A stretch of DNA of 64,000 nt from an uncultured Bacteroidota bacterium (GTDB lineage: Bacteria; Bacteroidota; Bacteroidia; Bacteroidales; SZUA-534), in NCBI GenBank assembly GCA_946186925.1, contig CAMHPA010000006.1, positions 23,221 through 87,220 on the forward strand, given 5' to 3'. How positions within the stretch are numbered: position 1 is the first letter of the stretch; each line of letters begins with the position of its first letter. The notes beneath the pieces were generated by a model. That model ran no database searches. It was not told the origin of the DNA and saw nothing but the letters and a program-made list of their open reading frames with translations. Positions 6,713-53,690 of the stretch are shown piece after piece. The position numbers and the translations under genes were made by a program.

Positions 6713-7089
6713 TCAAAATTTTCGTTAAAAATTATGCCGCAAAAGTGCAGGCTACATTTTTACTGTGAAATCCCCTATTTTGGCGATTTTCAGTTTTGTC
6801 CGATAGCCTTTTCGGGGGATTGCGGGAGCGTAAAGTGGTGGTTTACCTTGATATAAATGAATTTTTGGTGTTGAATTAATCTAACCGATTCAACCCGATT
6901 TAATCCGAAACTTAATCTGTTCGAATCTGATAGAATCGGTTAGTGAAAAATAATCTGTGAAAATCTGTGTTCTCTGCGCCATTTGTGCGAAAATTCCTGT
7001 GTTTTTCGCCCCCAAAAATCCCCATTTGTGGCGATTGCGGGCAACTTTGCATAAAGGTAATTTTGCGCCGTAAAAAATTAAGCATAGGT

Positions 7090-11901: not shown

Positions 11902-12468
11902 TTACTTTAACACTTCCACTTGCTTCTTCTCTAACTTTTCGGCCAGACGCATCGCCAGAATTGCAACGGGAATGGTGAGCAGAAGGACGAAAACGAGCAT
12001 CGGGGTATTGTCGATAACGGGGCGCATCAGGGCGTCGTAGCCAGGGCGCATCTCTTCGACGGCGGCGGCAAGCGAGCCTTCGGTGTCGGTCCACCAGTGG
12101 AAGGTGTAGGCGAAGAACGAGAAGGCCAGCGGCAGGAAACTCAGGCGGACGCCCCGCAGTGTGCTGTAGCCACAACGCCAGCGGACAATCTCGGCGGCGA
12201 CCGTCAGAAGAACAATGCCAACGACGAAAGTTGCATCGGCTTCGCCAGCAATCAGGAACAGAACGAACAAAAAGCCGTTCAGAACCGTGGCCGCGCCAAA
12301 CCGCTGCATCGCGGAAGCGGCGGGAAGATAGACAAGCGCCAGCAACAGCGGCACAACCGCGCCAGCGTACGCATAACACGCGGGGTGAATGAGCCCGCTC
12401 AAACTGCCTGCAATGAATGACAAAAACCAGGCGAATGCCAGTAACGAAATTTTAAAAATTGGTTTCAT
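11902..12468 (-). CDS. MptD/Trep_Strep-like integral membrane protein (putative ECF S component)
   Basis: 188 aa, five to six hydrophobic segments; family call from overall pattern only. Confidence 0.5.
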   Translation of the reverse strand: MKPIFKISLLAFAWFLSFIAGSLSGLIHPACYAYAGAVVPLLLALVYLPAASAMQRFGAATVLNGFLFVLFLIAGEADATFVVGIVLLTVAAEIVRWRCGYSTLRGVRLSFLPLAFSFFAYTFHWWTDTEGSLAAAVEEMRPGYDALMRPVIDNTPMLVFVLLLTIPVAILAMRLAEKLEKKQVEVLK

Positions 12469-12607: not shown

Positions 12608-13834
12608 CTAAAAACTAAACTTCGCCTTAACAAAAATCTCGGAATTGTCCTTATACATCGCGAACATTCCAGCGTCGGCGCGGAACCAGTCGTAGCCAGC
12701 GGTGAGCGATATTTCGTCGGTCAGGTTGTAGTCGGCGTTGAATCGAATGAAGAAGGCCCCGTTGTTGGCGCAGTCGAAGCGGCCGTAAGCCGACAACTTC
12801 AAAGTGTTGCGCAACAGGGCTTTACTGATATTGGCCGTTGCCATTCCCGCGTTGCGGTAGCACTCTGCAAGGGCGGTGCCGCCATCGGTGTAGGTGTGGC
12901 AGTATTGCGCCATCAGCGTCCAGTCGTTGCCAGGGTACCAGTCGATTCCAATGAGCGCAAGTGCCTGATTACGAAGCATCGGCGCCGACCGATAGCCAAT
13001 GAACGACAACTGTTGGTTGAAATATCCAGCCACTTCGGCGCGGACCACAAACTTGCCCACCGAAGCCGACGCATCGGCGCCAACCATCGTCATTCGGTGG
13101 TGGTGGGCGGCAACAGCCAGTGTGCCGTCGGGGTTGAAGCCTGTGAGTTGGAAGGCGGGCATCTTGTTCCACGTGCGCAGGACGCAGAGCGAGAAGTCGA
13201 TACCGCTCATATAGGCCGACACGCGCCCGCCGAACTCACTGTTTTCGAGCCGTTTAGCGGGTTTGCGGTCGTCCATCGCGCAGTACATTCCGCCCATTGC
13301 GATTGCCCACGGGTTGACGCTGTCGGTCGGCAGGTTAAAAAATTCGGGCACGGGCACCCAAATGGCTTCGGCTTTCACAGCCATATTGCTGTAATTCAGC
13401 CGAATGGCGTTCACAGGAATGCGAATATCATCGTAGTCTTCGGCCAAAAATTCGGTGTAGTCCATCGGCGAGATAATGTCGGTGACCTGCAGGCCGTCGG
13501 CCACGCCCCACGTGACAATCTGCTTGCCCGCTTTTATGCCCCAATTGCCCTGACTATGTTCAAGATAGGCTTCGCGCAGGTGCAGCCCAGTCTCGTCTTC
13601 GAGAATCGGGTTGTAAATGGCGTTGAGCGACACAAAGCCCGTTGTTGAGCCTTTCTCAAGGCCGCTCTCAAGGCGCGCGCACGTGCGGCTCGACATATAG
13701 TTCCACGGGTCGCTGCTGCGAACGGCGTGGTAGGTGTAGGCAAAACCCTTGTATTTGAATTTCAGCCCGTTATCGTCGTCTTGCGCCATTACTGCGAATG
13801 GCAGCAAAAACAGTGTGAGTAGGATTGGTTTCAT
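12608..13834 (-). CDS. Outer-membrane barrel protein (DUF1302-like) of an RND exporter operon
   Basis: 408 aa; signal peptide, GNWGIKAGKQIVTWGVADGLQVTDIISP; downstream of LolA-like and MMPL genes. Confidence 0.65.
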   Translation of the reverse strand: MKPILLTLFLLPFAVMAQDDDNGLKFKYKGFAYTYHAVRSSDPWNYMSSRTCARLESGLEKGSTTGFVSLNAIYNPILEDETGLHLREAYLEHSQGNWGIKAGKQIVTWGVADGLQVTDIISPMDYTEFLAEDYDDIRIPVNAIRLNYSNMAVKAEAIWVPVPEFFNLPTDSVNPWAIAMGGMYCAMDDRKPAKRLENSEFGGRVSAYMSGIDFSLCVLRTWNKMPAFQLTGFNPDGTLAVAAHHHRMTMVGADASASVGKFVVRAEVAGYFNQQLSFIGYRSAPMLRNQALALIGIDWYPGNDWTLMAQYCHTYTDGGTALAECYRNAGMATANISKALLRNTLKLSAYGRFDCANNGAFFIRFNADYNLTDEISLTAGYDWFRADAGMFAMYKDNSEIFVKAKFSF

Positions 13835-13938: not shown

Positions 13939-14712
13939 TCAAAGCCCCTTTTCCAACTGATTGACTGTGAAAATGTTATCGTTGACAGGTTGGTCGTACT
14001 TGTAGGCCTTGAAAACCAGATTGGTCTCGTGGTTGGTCTGCACGTTTTTCATATTCATTTGGCCGATAGTCCAGAAACCGTCAATCTGTTTCACGTCGGT
14101 GCAGACGAGCAGGCGGTGCAGTTTGTCGAGTTTGTCGTAATACTCAACGCGGACGGGAATCAGGCAGTCTTTCCGAATCCACGAAACGCGCCGAGTGTAG
14201 ATTTCGCCCGTGGTGTTGGGCACCGATTGCAGCACCCAACAGGCCTGACCGTCAATGGTTTCCTCGCGCAGCAGCGTGTGAGTGTCCTCGTCGGTGTTGC
14301 GGTGGCCCATATCGTCGTAGGTGAAGTCGGTGCCCATAAAATAGTCGGTTTTCGACGACGAGCCGCTGATTCGGCGCGTCTTTTTCATTGCGGGCAGATA
14401 GAGCCACTTGTCATCGTCGCGGTCGATTTGGTCGTATTCCCAGGTCAGGAAGCCAGTGCCCTTCACGTCGCCAGGGTAAAGGAAGAACATAATGGTTTTG
14501 CGGTCTTTGCCGTAGTCTTTGGCAAACGATTTGAGTTCGCGGACGCGCTTGCTGCCGTTCTTGTTGACGAGCATCAGGCTCATCTCGCAGTAGCGGGTGT
14601 CGCCGTCGGGGCGGTTGTGGACTTTTTCGGCAATCTCGCGGCCAGTCAGGTTTTGCGCCGACATTGTGGCAGTGGCCAGCATTGCGGCAATGATTGTTGC
14701 TATCTTTTTCAT
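13939..14712 (-). CDS. Outer-membrane lipoprotein-sorting (LolA-like) protein
   Basis: 257 aa; [31 protein letters not shown] motif characteristic of the family. Confidence 0.85.
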
Positions 14713-14958: not shown

Positions 14959-17313
14959 TCATTTTTCACGTTCCTCGCCGAAGACTTTGAAGCGCCGCAT
15001 CACGATTGGCGAAATGAACAAATCGGCGAACAGGGCGGCCACAAGGCCCGCGGCGGCTAGAATGCCAAGGTCGCGGAAGTTGTTGGCGGTTGACGACAGG
15101 AAGCCCAGGAAGGTGGCGGTGACAATCACCGTCGACATCACCACCGCAACGCCAATCACACGGAAGGTGCGCAGAATGGCGTGCCGATAGTTGGCTCGGC
15201 GGTCGAACTCAAGGTGCGCGTGGTTGACAACGTGAATGGTGTCATCGACGGCCAAACCAAGCACCATCGGGATTACAATGGCTGTGACCATATCGAGCGA
15301 ATAGCCGAACCAGCCCATCACGCCGCCCACAAAAATGATTGGCGCAAGATTCGGAATCATCCCCACAAGGCCCAGTTTCACGTTGCCGAAGGCCAACATC
15401 AGCAGCAAACCCACAATGAGCACCGAAATGAGCAGTGACCACATCTGCCCGCGAACCAGATATTGCTGCATTACAGTGAATTGCGGCAGATTGCCCACGG
15501 TTGAGATAACCGCATCGGGGAACAATTGCGCGGCGTATGCCTCAAGGTCGTCCATATTGGCCTCAACCTCGGCCGAGTTGTATTTGGTTATCTCGACCTG
15601 AAGACGCAACTTACTGTAGTCATAATCAATCCAATAGTTGGTTTCCGAGCCGCCCGCGTTCTCGTAGAGCAAGAGCAGTTGCGCCACCGCGTCGCTGCTT
15701 TCGGGAATGCGGTAGAAGGCCTGATTGTTCTCGTTCAGCGTGCGGTTCATATCCTTCAGAATTGGCAGAATTGAGTAATGGCGCTTTGTAAGTACGTATG
15801 TTTCAACGCGTTTCTCAAGCAGTTCGAGTTTGCGCAGCGTTTCGGGCTGTTTGGCCTCGTCGGCGTTGGGCAACGCCACAAGCAAGTCGTACGAGTACAT
15901 TGAGCCGATTTCCGACTCGCTAACGTTTAGCAACTCATCGACATACGGCACCTGACGGCCCATTGTCTTCTCAACATCGAAAGCGGGCTGAATGCGATAA
16001 ACGGCTGACGCACAAACGATTGCCAGCACGCACGAAACAATCATAATCTTGCGGCTGTGCGACAGAACCCACTCGCCCAGACGTTGGAACCAGGCGTCGG
16101 CGCGGCCCTCAATGGTGTTCACAAACGACTTGCGCAGGCGAATGTTCTTTCGTCCGAACGAGTAGATTATCGGTGTGAAAATCAGGCAGGTAAGCACCAC
16201 CGAGACAATGCACAGCGACGAGTTTATGCCAATGGCCTTCATCGGCACAATCTTCATCGCCACAAACGAGAGCATTGCCGCAATGGTGGTGATTCCAGAG
16301 AACATCACAGGCCAGCCCGTCTCGGTCACGGCCTCGGTAATGGCCCGCAGGCGGTCGCCGTGCTGAACCAACTGCGTGCGGAAATAGTTGTAAATGTGAA
16401 TGTTGTAGGCGATTGAAATGGCAAAGCACAGCACCACAACCGACAGCGTGGCGGCCGAGTCAATGTAGAGCCCCGTCCAGCCAATCCAGCCGAAAGCCAT
16501 CAGAATGCTCATTATGGTGGTGGCGATTGGCATCAGAATTCCGCGCAGCGAGCGAGTGACCACGGTCATTATTATAATGCCGATAATCAGCACAATAACC
16601 AGCATCATCGCCATTTGGCCGTGCATATACTCGTTCTTCTCGTACGACATATACGGCATTCCCGACGCGTGCGGGTGTAGGCTCGCGTACTTGGGCTGCG
16701 AGCATATTTCCTTCGCCTCGCGGCCAGTCATCAGGTCGGGCGCCTCGTTGGTTTCGGCCTTCCACACCGAGTCTTCGGGGAACGGCCGCAACTTCACCAT
16801 AATCCACGACATTGTGCCGTCCTTCGAGATTAGGCGCTGAGCCAGTTCGGGCTTCGAGTAGGCGGCCCGCTTAATGGCGGCCATGCCCTCGGCGTCGTCG
16901 GGAATCACATCGGGCACAATCTGCCCAAGTTCCATACCGTCGTCGGTGCCAACCATAAACTCAAGGTCGGTGAGCGACGTGATTTTCTCGGAATACGACA
17001 GGCTGTCCATCAGATTGTTGCTCAACTCGCGAATGAGTTCCAGATTCTGTTTGGTGAACAGTCCGCCGTCGTTCTGAACCAGCACGGCCACGTAGTAGTC
17101 GTTGCCGAAAATGGCCTTGAACTCGTCGGTTTTCTCGAGCATCGGGTCGCCCTCAACAAAATAACTGTCCCACGACGTCTCGAAATAGATTCGTTTAAGT
17201 CCCATTGCCGACAACACAAAGATTGCGGCAAACGCCAGCACCGTCAGCAGGCGGTGACGCAGATTCCACTCTGTCAGAGCGCGGAATCGTGAATTGATTT
17301 TCTCAATGTTCAT
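14959..17313 (-). CDS. RND/MMPL-family exporter
   Basis: 784 aa; repeated 6-TM halves, GLAVDDTIHVVNHAHLEFDR and PMVLGLAVDD. Confidence 0.9.
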   Translation of the reverse strand: MNIEKINSRFRALTEWNLRHRLLTVLAFAAIFVLSAMGLKRIYFETSWDSYFVEGDPMLEKTDEFKAIFGNDYYVAVLVQNDGGLFTKQNLELIRELSNNLMDSLSYSEKITSLTDLEFMVGTDDGMELGQIVPDVIPDDAEGMAAIKRAAYSKPELAQRLISKDGTMSWIMVKLRPFPEDSVWKAETNEAPDLMTGREAKEICSQPKYASLHPHASGMPYMSYEKNEYMHGQMAMMLVIVLIIGIIIMTVVTRSLRGILMPIATTIMSILMAFGWIGWTGLYIDSAATLSVVVLCFAISIAYNIHIYNYFRTQLVQHGDRLRAITEAVTETGWPVMFSGITTIAAMLSFVAMKIVPMKAIGINSSLCIVSVVLTCLIFTPIIYSFGRKNIRLRKSFVNTIEGRADAWFQRLGEWVLSHSRKIMIVSCVLAIVCASAVYRIQPAFDVEKTMGRQVPYVDELLNVSESEIGSMYSYDLLVALPNADEAKQPETLRKLELLEKRVETYVLTKRHYSILPILKDMNRTLNENNQAFYRIPESSDAVAQLLLLYENAGGSETNYWIDYDYSKLRLQVEITKYNSAEVEANMDDLEAYAAQLFPDAVISTVGNLPQFTVMQQYLVRGQMWSLLISVLIVGLLLMLAFGNVKLGLVGMIPNLAPIIFVGGVMGWFGYSLDMVTAIVIPMVLGLAVDDTIHVVNHAHLEFDRRANYRHAILRTFRVIGVAVVMSTVIVTATFLGFLSSTANNFRDLGILAAAGLVAALFADLFISPIVMRRFKVFGEEREK

Positions 17314-17536
17314 AATTGTATTTATTTAATGTTTAGAAGTTTAGAGTTGAGAAGGTTGAGTTTTTTCTCTAACCGATTTTTGCCGATTCGAACCAAAAAA
17401 CATATCGGACAGAATCGGGTTGAATCGGTTAGATATTTTTCATTGTTCATTGCAGATTGTAAATCTGTGTTATCAGTGCGATTTTTTCCGTTGGTTCCGT
17501 CGTCCAAAAACGAACAACATTCAGAATCGTTCACAA

Positions 17537-17564
17537 AAAAAGGGACCCGTTTCCGAGCCCCTTT
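17537..17564 (-). terminator. Terminator-like leader hairpin upstream of MMPL ORF (possible attenuator)
   Basis: Minus strand AAAAGGGGCTCG-GAAA-CGGGTCCCTTTTTTT: 12-bp stem (G-U allowed), GAAA loop, U-tract. Confidence 0.6.
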
Positions 17565-17613
17565 TCCTGACTATTTAAAATCAAACTATGGTGTATTTGT
17601 TTTGCCATTAAAC

Positions 17614-17690
17614 TGAACGCTGTACGTTTTTAAACGCTGCAAAAATCAGCCGTAAAACGCAAATGGGCAATCCCCATTAGTTGGGATTTG
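17614..17690 (-). promoter_or_regulatory. Bipartite regulatory module, copy 1 (RND operon)
   Basis: TGAACGCTGTACGTTTTTAAACGCTGCAAAAATCAGCC...CAATCCCCATTAGTTGGGATTTG; near-identical copies at 19336 and 27573. Confidence 0.75.
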
Positions 17691-17726: not shown

Positions 17727-18134
17727 CTACAACGATTTCAGACATTCATCGACAAGCAATGATATTTGCGATATAAATGCCTCGCAACGTGGATATAGGG
17801 AATCGGCCGTTTCTTTGTTGTGGGTTAGAAAATCTTCGTAGTCACCAGCCGTACGCTTCGAGAACAGTATACTGTAAAACTGCCCTTGTTCTTTCGGAAT
17901 TTTCCCTGTCAACACAAAATGAAGCCCCAATTGCTGCCGCACGCCTTCGTGCGATTTAACTTGTATTCCGTTGGCAACCAACAACGCGCTAACTGCATAA
18001 TAACAAGCATAATACATTCTGTTTACAGCAGTATTGTAAAATCCATTTTCAATATGGCTTTGGACTTCGGCCAATGTGGTTCGGGCGTTTTCCAATCGGT
18101 ACAACACAATATCTTTCCGCTCATCGTTTGTCAT
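17727..18134 (-). CDS. HEPN-domain protein (HEPN/MNT pair)
   Basis: 135 aa; NRMYYACYYAVSALL helix typical of small HEPN proteins; overlaps MNT gene. Confidence 0.8.
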   Translation of the reverse strand: MTNDERKDIVLYRLENARTTLAEVQSHIENGFYNTAVNRMYYACYYAVSALLVANGIQVKSHEGVRQQLGLHFVLTGKIPKEQGQFYSILFSKRTAGDYEDFLTHNKETADSLYPRCEAFISQISLLVDECLKSL

Positions 18135-18439
18135 AACGCAACGCCCTCTTTTTCAATATTTTCATACAATGGTGTTTTGCGTTTTCCCCAATCATTTTTT
18201 GGCAAAATGATAGGATTTATGGCAATACCATATTGTAATTCAATAGGATACAATTTCGAGAACACTTTTTCTTCGTCCGAAAGATTCACCTGCTCTGAAT
18301 CTAACAGAATTAGCAAATCAATGTCGGAATTTTCACGGGCATCGCCACGCGCCTCTGAACCAAACAGCCTGACATCCATTGCGTAAGGAAGCCCCCGCAA
18401 AGCCGTCTTTATTGCCGATGTAACATTCGCCCGTGTCAT
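18131..18439 (-). CDS. Minimal nucleotidyltransferase (MNT)
   Basis: VRLFGSEARGDARENSDIDLLI (GSx10DxD); start refined to ATG at 18439. Confidence 0.85.
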   Translation of the reverse strand: MTRANVTSAIKTALRGLPYAMDVRLFGSEARGDARENSDIDLLILLDSEQVNLSDEEKVFSKLYPIELQYGIAINPIILPKNDWGKRKTPLYENIEKEGVAL

Positions 18440-18717
18440 AACTGAATCTTTTCTACAAAGATACGTGTTTTTCTTTGCGATGCAAGAATATATCTCGAAC
18501 ACGGTTTGCGGCTTATTTTCTCGGAATTATATAGGGATTCACAACACGGTTTTGTGTAAGAACGCAGACAGAACTGATTAAACAGATTCGCGCAAATGAA
18601 TATTATTGATTACGAATCCGATTGTGTCAGGAAATCGGTGGCAGACATCAGCAGAAATCTCAAAAAACTGCCTAAAAAGTTCCGCAGTTTTTGAATATTT
18701 ATGGCAATCGTAAGGAT

Positions 18718-19332
18718 TTAACCGTTGTAAATCAACTGTTTCCAGCCGTTGTTGTGGTAATCGACGTATTCCAGAAAAATCCGTTCGGCCTCGTCGGGTT
18801 TGACTTTGTGCATAATAATTTCCTCGAGCACGGCGAACATCTGCACGGTGTTTATGTGAATGAAGAACGGCGAGAAGTCCCATTTCAGTGCGGGATAGCG
18901 TTGCTTCATCGCATCCATATAGTTGAGCATCAGGCCTGTAGCCTCGTCGGTGAAATCTTCTTTGAACCGCGCCAGCGACGAGCCCGCCGACTTGAACAGC
19001 AGCAGAGTGAGCAAGTCTCTGTATTTCAGCATTATCTGATTGTATTCGGCGGCCGTTTTCTCAGTCATTTCGGGCATCCATTGCTTTGTTATGTCAATTT
19101 GCAGCGGGTTGTGGTAGGTTTGCAGAAGGCGCTTGAACTCGCCCGTGAGCGGCGCCACAATGGCGCGGAAAAGGTCATCTTTGCCAGCATAATAGTTGTA
19201 AATGTTGCTCAACCCCACGCCCGCCTTTTCGGCAATCTCGCGCATCGACGTCTGCGCGAATCCCTTTTTCAGGAAAATCGCCTTTGCCGCCTTTGCAATC
19301 TGCTGCTCAATATCGTCCTTTTTGGTTTGCAT
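18718..19332 (-). CDS. TetR/AcrR family transcriptional regulator
   Basis: AKAIFLKKGFAQTSMREIAEKAGVGLSNIYNYYAGKDDLF HTH; start refined to ATG at 19332 because the conserved regulatory module lies just upstream. Confidence 0.92.
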   Translation of the reverse strand: MQTKKDDIEQQIAKAAKAIFLKKGFAQTSMREIAEKAGVGLSNIYNYYAGKDDLFRAIVAPLTGEFKRLLQTYHNPLQIDITKQWMPEMTEKTAAEYNQIMLKYRDLLTLLLFKSAGSSLARFKEDFTDEATGLMLNYMDAMKQRYPALKWDFSPFFIHINTVQMFAVLEEIIMHKVKPDEAERIFLEYVDYHNNGWKQLIYNG

Positions 19333-25653: not shown

Positions 25654-27435
25654 TCAATTCTCAATTTTCCATTCCACCGATTTTTGGTATTCGTTCCACA
25701 TTCGAGAGTAGATACCTTGCTGTTTTACAAGGTCTTCGTGCTTGCCGCTCTCGACAATCCGCCCTTCTTTGAACACGAAAATCGCGTCGGCGTCAACAAC
25801 GGTTGAAAGGCGGTGGGCGATTTTTATAACTGTCTTTCCTTTAGACATTTCGTTGAATGCCCGAAGCACTTTTTCCTCGTTTTCGGGGTCGGCAAAGGCG
25901 GTTGCCTCGTCCAGAATCAGAATGGGCGCGTTGCGCAGCATCACCCTCGCAATGGCAATGCGCTGCTGCTCGCCGCCGCTCAAATAGGTGCCGCGACTGC
26001 CAATGACGGTGTTCACGCCGTCGGGCAGGCGGTTGATAATGTCGGTGCATTGGGCGCGTTGCAGAACTTCAGCAACTTCGGCGTCGGTTGCCGTCGGCTT
26101 GGCCATCTTGATATTGTCTAAAATGCTCGTTTTCATTAGTTTGCTGTCTTGAAAAACAAACGACACGATTTCCGACAGCCGCGCCTGCGGAATGTTGCGC
26201 ACATCGACGCCGCCAATGAGAATGCGGCCTTCGGCAACATCCCAGAACCGCGACACAAGGCTTGCCGACGTGGTTTTGCCGCCACCCGACGGCCCGACAA
26301 AGGCCACGTGTCCGCCCGACGGAATTGTCAGCGAAATGCCGTCCAGAGCGTTCCGCGCGGCATCTTTGTAACGGAATTTAACATTCTGAAACTCAACCGA
26401 ATAATCGCTTGGCGTTTGCGGATTTTCGGCATCTTTCATCTCTTCGACATCGAGCACCGAATTGATTCGCAAAAGCGAGTTCTCAACAATCATATCGGCT
26501 TCCGACGAGTGCATCAACTTGAAGAAAATCACCGCGATAACGGGCGTGAAAATGATATAGAACATCAGGTTTGAGAAAAACTCGGGGCTTGCCGCGCCGC
26601 TGCCGTGCCAGAGCGCAACGGCCGTCAGCATTGCAAAAAACGAGTTGATTACAACGGTGTAGGCCGTCATCGGAATACGGAAACGACGGGTGTAACTAAC
26701 TGAAAATATTTCGTATGTATCGATCGCCGCCTTGAGTTTCTTGAACGAGAAAACCGACTGCCCGAACGTCTTCACAACAGGAATGCCGCGCACGTACTCA
26801 ACGGCTTCCTTCGTCATATTCTCGAGCGCGACGTTGTAGGCCAGAATATCGCGCTTCAGCGACGGCCCCACCATAAAACCGTACATTATGAGAAAGGCGA
26901 CCACAATGGTTGCAATGCACAGAAGGCCGATTCGCCAGTCGAAATACATCAGCAGGGCAATCATCGCCACGGGCGTCACCATTCCCACGGTGCGGTCGGG
27001 CAGAATGTGTTCCAGGTAGTTGCTCATTGCGTCGGTTGAGTCGATAATGATTTTGCGGATTTTGCCGCTGCCTTCGGTCTCAATGTGTCCGAGCGGCATC
27101 CGAAGCACCTTGGCCACGCAGCGCTCGCGAATGTTGGCCACCGTGCGGAACGCCCCAAGGTGCGAGCAGGCCAGCGCGCAAAAATAGACGCACATTGCGT
27201 TGACCGCATACTTGACGGCCGTAAAGCCGTAATCTTCAATGTTTTCCGCTTTCGCGAAATCGGGCGCCACACTCAGCACTTCGTTCACGATTTTCCAAAT
27301 GTAAACGAACGGCACCAGTCCCAGGCACGCGCTCGCCGCCGACAGCACAATGGCCCCAACGGTGAAATACTTGAACCGACCTGCGTTGTCCATCAGCGTG
27401 AGCAGGTTCGGTCGCTTTTTTGTTTTGTTATCCAT
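25654..27435 (-). CDS. ABC transporter, fused permease/ATPase (partner)
   Basis: 593 aa; GPSGGGKTT, LSGGEQQRIAIARVML. Confidence 0.93.
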   Translation of the reverse strand: MDNKTKKRPNLLTLMDNAGRFKYFTVGAIVLSAASACLGLVPFVYIWKIVNEVLSVAPDFAKAENIEDYGFTAVKYAVNAMCVYFCALACSHLGAFRTVANIRERCVAKVLRMPLGHIETEGSGKIRKIIIDSTDAMSNYLEHILPDRTVGMVTPVAMIALLMYFDWRIGLLCIATIVVAFLIMYGFMVGPSLKRDILAYNVALENMTKEAVEYVRGIPVVKTFGQSVFSFKKLKAAIDTYEIFSVSYTRRFRIPMTAYTVVINSFFAMLTAVALWHGSGAASPEFFSNLMFYIIFTPVIAVIFFKLMHSSEADMIVENSLLRINSVLDVEEMKDAENPQTPSDYSVEFQNVKFRYKDAARNALDGISLTIPSGGHVAFVGPSGGGKTTSASLVSRFWDVAEGRILIGGVDVRNIPQARLSEIVSFVFQDSKLMKTSILDNIKMAKPTATDAEVAEVLQRAQCTDIINRLPDGVNTVIGSRGTYLSGGEQQRIAIARVMLRNAPILILDEATAFADPENEEKVLRAFNEMSKGKTVIKIAHRLSTVVDADAIFVFKEGRIVESGKHEDLVKQQGIYSRMWNEYQKSVEWKIEN

Positions 27436-27496
27436 ATACTTAATTTTTAATTTGTTACGCTTTTAAAAGCGAACAGCCGTCAATTTTGTTCTCAAA

Positions 27497-27525
27497 AAAA
27501 AAGGACCCGTTTCCGAGTCCCTTTT
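27497..27525 (-). terminator. Terminator-like leader hairpin upstream of ABC pair
   Basis: Minus strand AAAAGGGACTCG-GAAA-CGGGTCCTTTTTTTTTT; same architecture as 17537-17564. Confidence 0.6.
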
Positions 27526-27572
27526 CCCTAACTTTAATTCAAAATACGGCTTGTTTGTCTGTACATTTTAAG

Positions 27573-27651
27573 TGAACGCTGTACGTTTTTAAATGCTGCA
27601 AAAATCAGCCGAAAACGCATATCGGTCAATCCCAATTTGTGGGGATTTGTG
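27573..27651 (-). promoter_or_regulatory. Bipartite regulatory module, copy 3 (ABC pair)
   Basis: TGAACGCTGTACGTTTTTAAATGCTGCAAAAATCAGCCGAAAACGCATATCGGTCAATCCCAATTTGTGGGGATTTGTGCGG. Confidence 0.75.
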
Positions 27652-53515: not shown

Positions 53516-53599
53516 CTTTTTAAATTTTTAAAAATTAGTTAGTAAAAAAGATTGAAATGGGGGTAATGAAAGAATTATACTGGTTTGGCTTCTGATTGG

Positions 53600-53690
53600 A
53601 AATCAAAGCCTTATCCCTACGACGGCATTACCCGTATCAGGTTCAAAGGGTATAATCTCAGCCGCAAGCGGCACCCCATTCTTTTCGGGG
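53600..53690 (-). ncRNA. TPP (THI-box) riboswitch
   Basis: Minus strand GGGGTGCCGCTTGCGGCTGAGATTATACCCTTTGAACCTGATACGGGTAATGCCGTCGTAGGGATAAG. Confidence 0.95.

Follow-up and report, generated by a model that had tools for sequence, protein, structure and literature searches.

The hairpin upstream of an MMPL-family RND transporter gene in a 64,000-nucleotide stretch of Bacteroidota DNA (hereafter the window, meaning the whole stretch that was analysed) appears to have been the intrinsic terminator at the end of a tetR unit that controlled itself and has since lost the tetR coding part, a reading that we consider fairly probable. It applies to two leaders, termed A and B, which precede the MMPL operon and an ABC transporter operon, respectively. 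The hairpin probably separates two tandem predicted promoters, P1 and P2, rather than serving as a switch within the leader of an efflux gene. The anatomy of the hairpin and the leaders, their conservation, the covariation of the stem and its identity with the tetR terminator of relatives are established by the comparisons described below.

The hairpin lies on the minus strand and, including its U-tract, extends from 17565 to 17535 (Table 1). The initial annotation had described a 12-bp stem, a GAAA loop and a U7 tract more than 200 bp ahead of the MMPL start, as well as a 25-codon short ORF running through the hairpin. All of these features were found, with the ORF at 17608-17531 and the MMPL ATG, at 17313, 222 nt downstream of the hairpin. 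Folding of the region 17620-17520 yielded -30.9 kcal/mol (z = -4.3), a value that was reached by none of 200 shuffled sequences, and the isolated 28-nt stem yielded -17.8 kcal/mol. The leader A hairpin has the stable stem-loop and the following U-tract of an intrinsic terminator. A consensus scan of the window for terminators and E. coli-type sigma-70 promoters did not list it, probably because most of the T run is taken up by the A4/U4 stem extension. The scan was discarded, its promoter type being the wrong one for Bacteroidetes.

Homology identifies the source organism as a Salinivirgaceae bacterium of the rumen type. The MMPL protein of the window is 58% identical to MMPL in Prevotella species other than P. 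intermedia. Between P2 and the MMPL gene, an interspersed palindromic repeat was noticed (CTAACCGATTCAACCCGATT...AATCGGCAAAAATCGGTTAG, window positions 17440-17360, minus strand), which has about 20 matches in the genome. Among Rfam families, only the TPP riboswitch, at 53597-53688 (minus strand), exceeded the gathering cutoff anywhere in the window.

Table 1. Positions of the leaders, their elements and the neighbouring genes in the window.
Feature	Position	Strand	Remark
Palindromic box AATCCCAACTAATGGGGATTG	17668..17688	-	contains P1 -33 element ATTG (17671-17668)
Palindromic box, 4 perfect copies	17688-17668, 19410-19390, 27647-27627; G000:C6:19607-19627	- (window copies)	
P1 -7 element GATTTTTG	17640..17647	-	20 nt after ATTG
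P1 start, predicted	~17635		
P1 TetR operator AACGTACAGCGTTCA, predicted	17614..17628	-	reverse orientation of TGAAnnnTGTACG
P1 terminated RNA, predicted	17535..17635	-	~101 nt, inferred from P1 and terminator
Short ORF ATGGCAAAACAAATACACC...	17608-17531	-	25 codons and TGA, passes through hairpin
Terminator hairpin, whole	17538..17565	-	tetR terminator hairpin of relatives
Stem 5' arm AAAAGGGGCTCG	17565-17554	-	12-bp stem
Loop GAAA	17553-17550	-	
Stem 3' arm CGGGTCCCTTTT	17549-17538	-	
U-tract (T7)	17541-17535	-	overlaps 3' arm
P2	17505..17537	-	between leader A hairpin and MMPL
P2 -33, T-tract/TTTG	17537-17534	-	
P2 operator half-site GAAC	17532-17529	-	
P2 TetR operator TGAATGTTGTTCG, predicted	17523-17511	-	
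P2 -7-like CGTTTTTG	17512-17505	-	predicted start ~17500
MMPL-family RND transporter	14959..17313	-	behind leader A
LolA-like gene	13939-14712		downstream of MMPL
DUF1302 gene	12608-13834		after LolA-like gene
Trep_Strep/MptD-like gene	11902-12468		after DUF1302 gene
HEPN/MNT pair	17727..18460	-	between TetR and leader A
TetR regulator	18718..19332	-	P1 cassette upstream (19410-19336), no hairpin in promoter part
P1 promoter part alone, before tetR	19418-19335	-	without hairpin
Leader B	27464..27649	-	upstream of ABC transporter pair
Leader B P1 -7	27606-27599	-	
Leader B P1 operator	27587-27573	-	
Leader B hairpin	27525-27498	-	
Leader B P2 operator	27482-27470	-	
Leader B P2 -7-like	27471-27464	-	
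ABC pair, first gene	25654..27435	-	behind leader B; predicted P2 5' UTR 24 nt

The Bacteroidetes promoter consensus consists of a -33 TTTG and a -7 TAnnTTTG element (PMC7366714, PMC9723704), and the tetR promoters of relatives carry a perfect -7 TAnnTTTG at the place of P1 (TAAATTTG in L078, TACCTTTG in L103). In the window, leader B matches leader A with 79% identity over 185 nt, a stretch that takes in the hairpin, and the promoter part of each leader resembles the TetR promoter (copy C; 81-88%). The core of the predicted P1 operator, CGTACAGCGTTCA, does not vary among the A and B leaders of the genus members and is shared by nearly all TetR promoters. The predicted 5' UTRs, 25 nt from the tetR copy of P1 to tetR and 24 nt from P2 to the first ABC gene, are close to the commonest length of 23 nt in B. 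thetaiotaomicron (PMC7366714), which supports the assignment of P1 and P2.

Each of the leader A, TetR and leader B promoters has a 21-bp palindromic box, AATCCCnAnnAATnGGGATTG, across its -33 element. Its four perfect copies in the 3.3-Mb genome are all located on the same contig, while the control yielded none. Several additional occurrences were noticed. A degenerate copy lies at about 7016-7036 of the window; in sister species, the box also precedes genes that, on a translation-based reading, encode a TonB-receptor-like protein, a ZIP-like transporter and an LCM methyltransferase; and a similar AATCCC...GGTATTG box is found at tetR promoters across Bacteroidales.

Leader A is present in five further species of the genus with 97-99% identity, and leader B in three. 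In two genomes (G002, locus L090, and G008, locus L089), no MMPL gene was found and leader A is directly followed by the Trep_Strep gene; hence, the operon changes its genes but keeps the leader in front of them. Across three species, 4 of 182 columns are variable in leader A, compared to 47 of 388 fourfold sites of the MMPL gene. For leader B the count is 11 of 182, with no change in the 70 columns of spacer and hairpin, compared to 29 of 290 fourfold sites of the first ABC gene, and the spacer is unchanged in four species. P1 and the spacer thus change too slowly for P1 and its RNA to be in simple decay.

The relatives show where such a hairpin resides in an intact unit. In MAGs of Paludibacteraceae, with TetR 71-78% and MMPL 80% identical to the window proteins, the same hairpin, in which bases have changed yet remain paired, lies about 40 nt past the tetR stop codon and is followed by P2 and then by the target gene. 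The order is tetR, hairpin and MMPL in L064, L067 and L082, and tetR, hairpin and ABC pair in L128, L130, L132 and L133. The tetR gene is located between P1 and the terminator in L064, L067, L082 and L128-L134; at this place it is absent in leaders A and B. The stem itself is well supported by covariation, as 84 of 84 pair cells were standard across seven distinct relatives with 12 pairs each, compared to 37-69% in slid controls. Two pairs had changed on both sides, so that the hairpin exhibits the compensatory changes expected of an intrinsic terminator.

Four further loci (L063, L065, L066 and L083) have a tetR-less leader before the MMPL operon and a single tetR upstream of the ABC genes. 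The ORFs in these leaders start with the 5' end of tetR. The L083 leader could be aligned with the L128 tetR gene over 59 nt without a gap (MQIKRKNIVQ versus MQIKKEDIEQ), and none of 1000 shuffles was as good. By sequence comparison, this tetR 5' end identifies the tetR-less leaders of Paludibacteraceae as tetR cassettes from which tetR has been largely deleted. For the short-ORF region of leader A the match to tetR was marginal (49 of 1000 shuffles were as good), and the likewise marginal similarity of its spacer to the tetR 5' end or 3' UTR was not used as proof. The short ORF does lie at the place that the tetR start codon takes in the cassette copy belonging to the TetR gene. For leaders A and B, we infer the tetR origin from the two flanks, a tetR promoter on one side and a tetR terminator on the other. 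The tetR gene of the window argues against this model, as its stop codon is followed by an unrelated terminator-like repeat and not by the leader hairpin.

The second element, P2, has the same layout after the U-tract of each such hairpin, namely a T-tract (TTTG, TTATG or TTTGTG), AAC, TGAAnnnTGTTCG and TTTTTG. The T-tract of the terminator doubles as the -33 element at a spacing of 19-21 nt, and the -7-like CGTTTTTG is overlapped by the predicted TetR operator. The motif has exactly two matches in the 3.3-Mb genome of the window, right after hairpins A and B, and none in the control; seven Paludibacteraceae genomes contain one or two matches each, all behind hairpins. At tetR loci of Bacteroidales, P2 was found 3-122 nt past the tetR stop codon in 23 of 40 cases, and 18 of these 23 loci have a hairpin immediately next to the T-tract, often one with an unrelated sequence. 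P2-like elements without a hairpin occur in L080, L084, L085, L113 and L114. Two features count against the promoter model, the missing TA of TAnnTTTG in the -7-like CGTTTTTG and the degenerate P2 operator of leader B.

Motif comparison revealed the predicted TetR operator motif at both P1 and P2, as inverted copies that flank the hairpin. This arrangement prompted the consideration of a mobile repeat (MITE), which was ruled out because the block is always located before genes of the regulon, each genome has one or two copies of P2, and two operators suffice as an explanation.

We infer promoter activity, TetR binding, termination and the promoter feeding the MMPL gene from the sequence, and they can be combined as follows. 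The ancestral cassette would have had the order P1, tetR, terminator, P2 and target operon. P1, with a TetR operator just past the start and the palindromic box, possibly a second, metal-responsive operator, at -33, would drive tetR, and the hairpin would end the tetR mRNA. P2, with the T-tract as -33 region and the TetR operator in the spacer, would drive the target genes. Ahead of the two transporter operons of the window, MMPL (A) and ABC (B), the cassette would persist without tetR. There, P1 would yield a terminated RNA of about 101 nt; the RNA of about 100 nt that had been proposed earlier is thus supported by the terminator and the predicted P1 start. The hairpin would insulate P2, a TetR protein encoded elsewhere would control P1 and P2 of both leaders, and the transporter genes would be read mainly from P2.

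It had been proposed in the initial annotation that the upstream promoter yields a terminated RNA unless read-through occurs, as a control layer in addition to TetR, and that a mapped promoter downstream of the hairpin would speak against this. The promoter-like element P2, identified in silico, has just this location. It adjoins the 3' side of the hairpin in every related locus, and its occurrence without a hairpin in several relatives, together with the role of the hairpin as tetR terminator in others, disfavours control of the MMPL gene mainly via read-through. A full attenuator, in which P1 would be the main promoter of the MMPL and ABC genes and the hairpin would be read through conditionally, depending on translation of the short ORF or on a factor, is unlikely in our view. 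P1, ORF, terminator and gene do follow one another in this order, conservation covers P1, spacer and hairpin, a similar order of promoter, short ORF, terminator and operator is found upstream of tetR in Prevotella, and, since the palindromic box occurs only at P1, read-through from P1 would add a second input. However, no promoter should follow the terminator of an attenuator, and the predicted P2 sits between the hairpin and the genes. Furthermore, the short ORF has 25 codons in leader A versus 10 in leader B, its length and its frame past the U-tract vary with U7 or U8, and in Paludibacteraceae leaders an indel lies within it. A conserved leader peptide was not found, as the ORF differs among leaders A, B and those of Paludibacteraceae. 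The folding analysis likewise gave no antiterminator before the 3' arm that equals the terminator (-9.6 versus -17.8 kcal/mol in leader A, -7.3 versus -15.7 kcal/mol in leader B), and the Rfam search of the window yielded no match or aptamer in the leader. Pairing between P1 and P2 in a read-through RNA (-51 kcal/mol in leader A), which is strong because the operators are inverted copies, was rejected as an antiterminator because it forms only past the terminator. Together, P2 and the lack of an antiterminator and of a conserved peptide disfavour a classical attenuator.

The conservation of P1 and the short RNA keeps two related readings alive, partial read-through and a functional P1 transcript. 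The latter, a small RNA or small-peptide mRNA that would be made upon release of TetR and act in trans on mRNAs or as a sponge, would have its own promoter and terminator, and it has two paralogues per genome as well as the invariant leader B spacer in its favour. Nevertheless, we judge it quite improbable, because the spacers of A and B differ, no Rfam family was matched, and an origin as a tetR remnant would account for the existence of the RNA without a function. Slightly bolder, and decidedly doubtful, is the notion that selection maintains the tetR-less leaders as units of their own. P1, once released by TetR, would produce a conserved, roughly 100-nt RNA with two paralogues, and this RNA would affect metal-transport genes either in trans or through controlled read-through. 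If true, a repressor gene would have become a regulatory RNA gene through loss of its coding part. It is hardly credible that the hairpin is simply the terminator at the 3' end of the HEPN/MNT pair located upstream. The pair runs in the same direction, and no evident terminator separates it from leader A, but the leader and the hairpin are retained where the interval between TetR and leader A lacks the pair (G003 and Paludibacteraceae; it is present in the window species and in G009), and they also stand before the ABC pair. This conservation refutes the pair as the origin of the hairpin, which likely ends HEPN/MNT read-through only incidentally.

Two side observations concern these loci. The HEPN protein is 100% identical in G009, whereas the flanking genes differ at about 20-25% of fourfold sites; therefore, the HEPN/MNT pair was probably exchanged recently. 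In Prevotella (L068-L072), a promoter (TACCTTTG or TATCTTTG), a short ORF (MIKRKYH... or MRKDKYH...), a terminator hairpin and a TetR operator are found 5' of tetR, before the whole tetR-ABC-MMPL operon, and most differences between the short ORFs of L068 and L069 look synonymous. This leader is a better candidate for a leader peptide than that of the window.

Among known systems, the intrinsic tetR terminators of relatives share the GC-containing stem, the tetraloop, the U7-8 tract, the covariation and the place directly after tetR; the window leaders differ in that their promoter and terminator do not enclose a tetR gene. Leader-peptide attenuators are similar in promoter, short ORF, terminator and gene order, whereas the window leader has no antiterminator or conserved peptide and has a promoter-like element past the terminator. 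The P1 transcript resembles Bacteroides intergenic sRNAs with their own start site and terminator (PMC7366714) in size and anatomy, but it is a prediction and is explained as a tetR remnant. A published description of a leader like leader A was not found in the literature.

The gene set of the window is shared with loci that respond to iron. Iron depletion strongly induces homologous TetR-ABC-MMPL-lipoprotein-sorting loci in P. gingivalis (PG1175-81) and P. intermedia (PMC10434189). In B. thetaiotaomicron, where BT0507-09 comprises the regulator and the ABC genes, it induced BT0507 (tetR) 51-fold and BT0508-0509 (ABC) 516-675-fold (PMC10434189), and this inequality is in line with tetR and its targets having separate promoters. 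In contrast to these loci, the window has the set distributed over two operons, both of which are headed by a tetR-less leader.

If the hairpin is a tetR terminator, as we favour, the order of promoter, hairpin and gene is insufficient for calling an attenuator in Bacteroidetes. For a type of transporter locus that is reported to be strongly induced on iron depletion, the analysis also supplies a predicted TetR operator, TGAAnnnTGTTCG. A block of terminator and promoter would travel with the regulon, its T-tract shared as the tail of the terminator and the -33 element of the target promoter, and once tetR was lost, this block would be re-usable before new operons.
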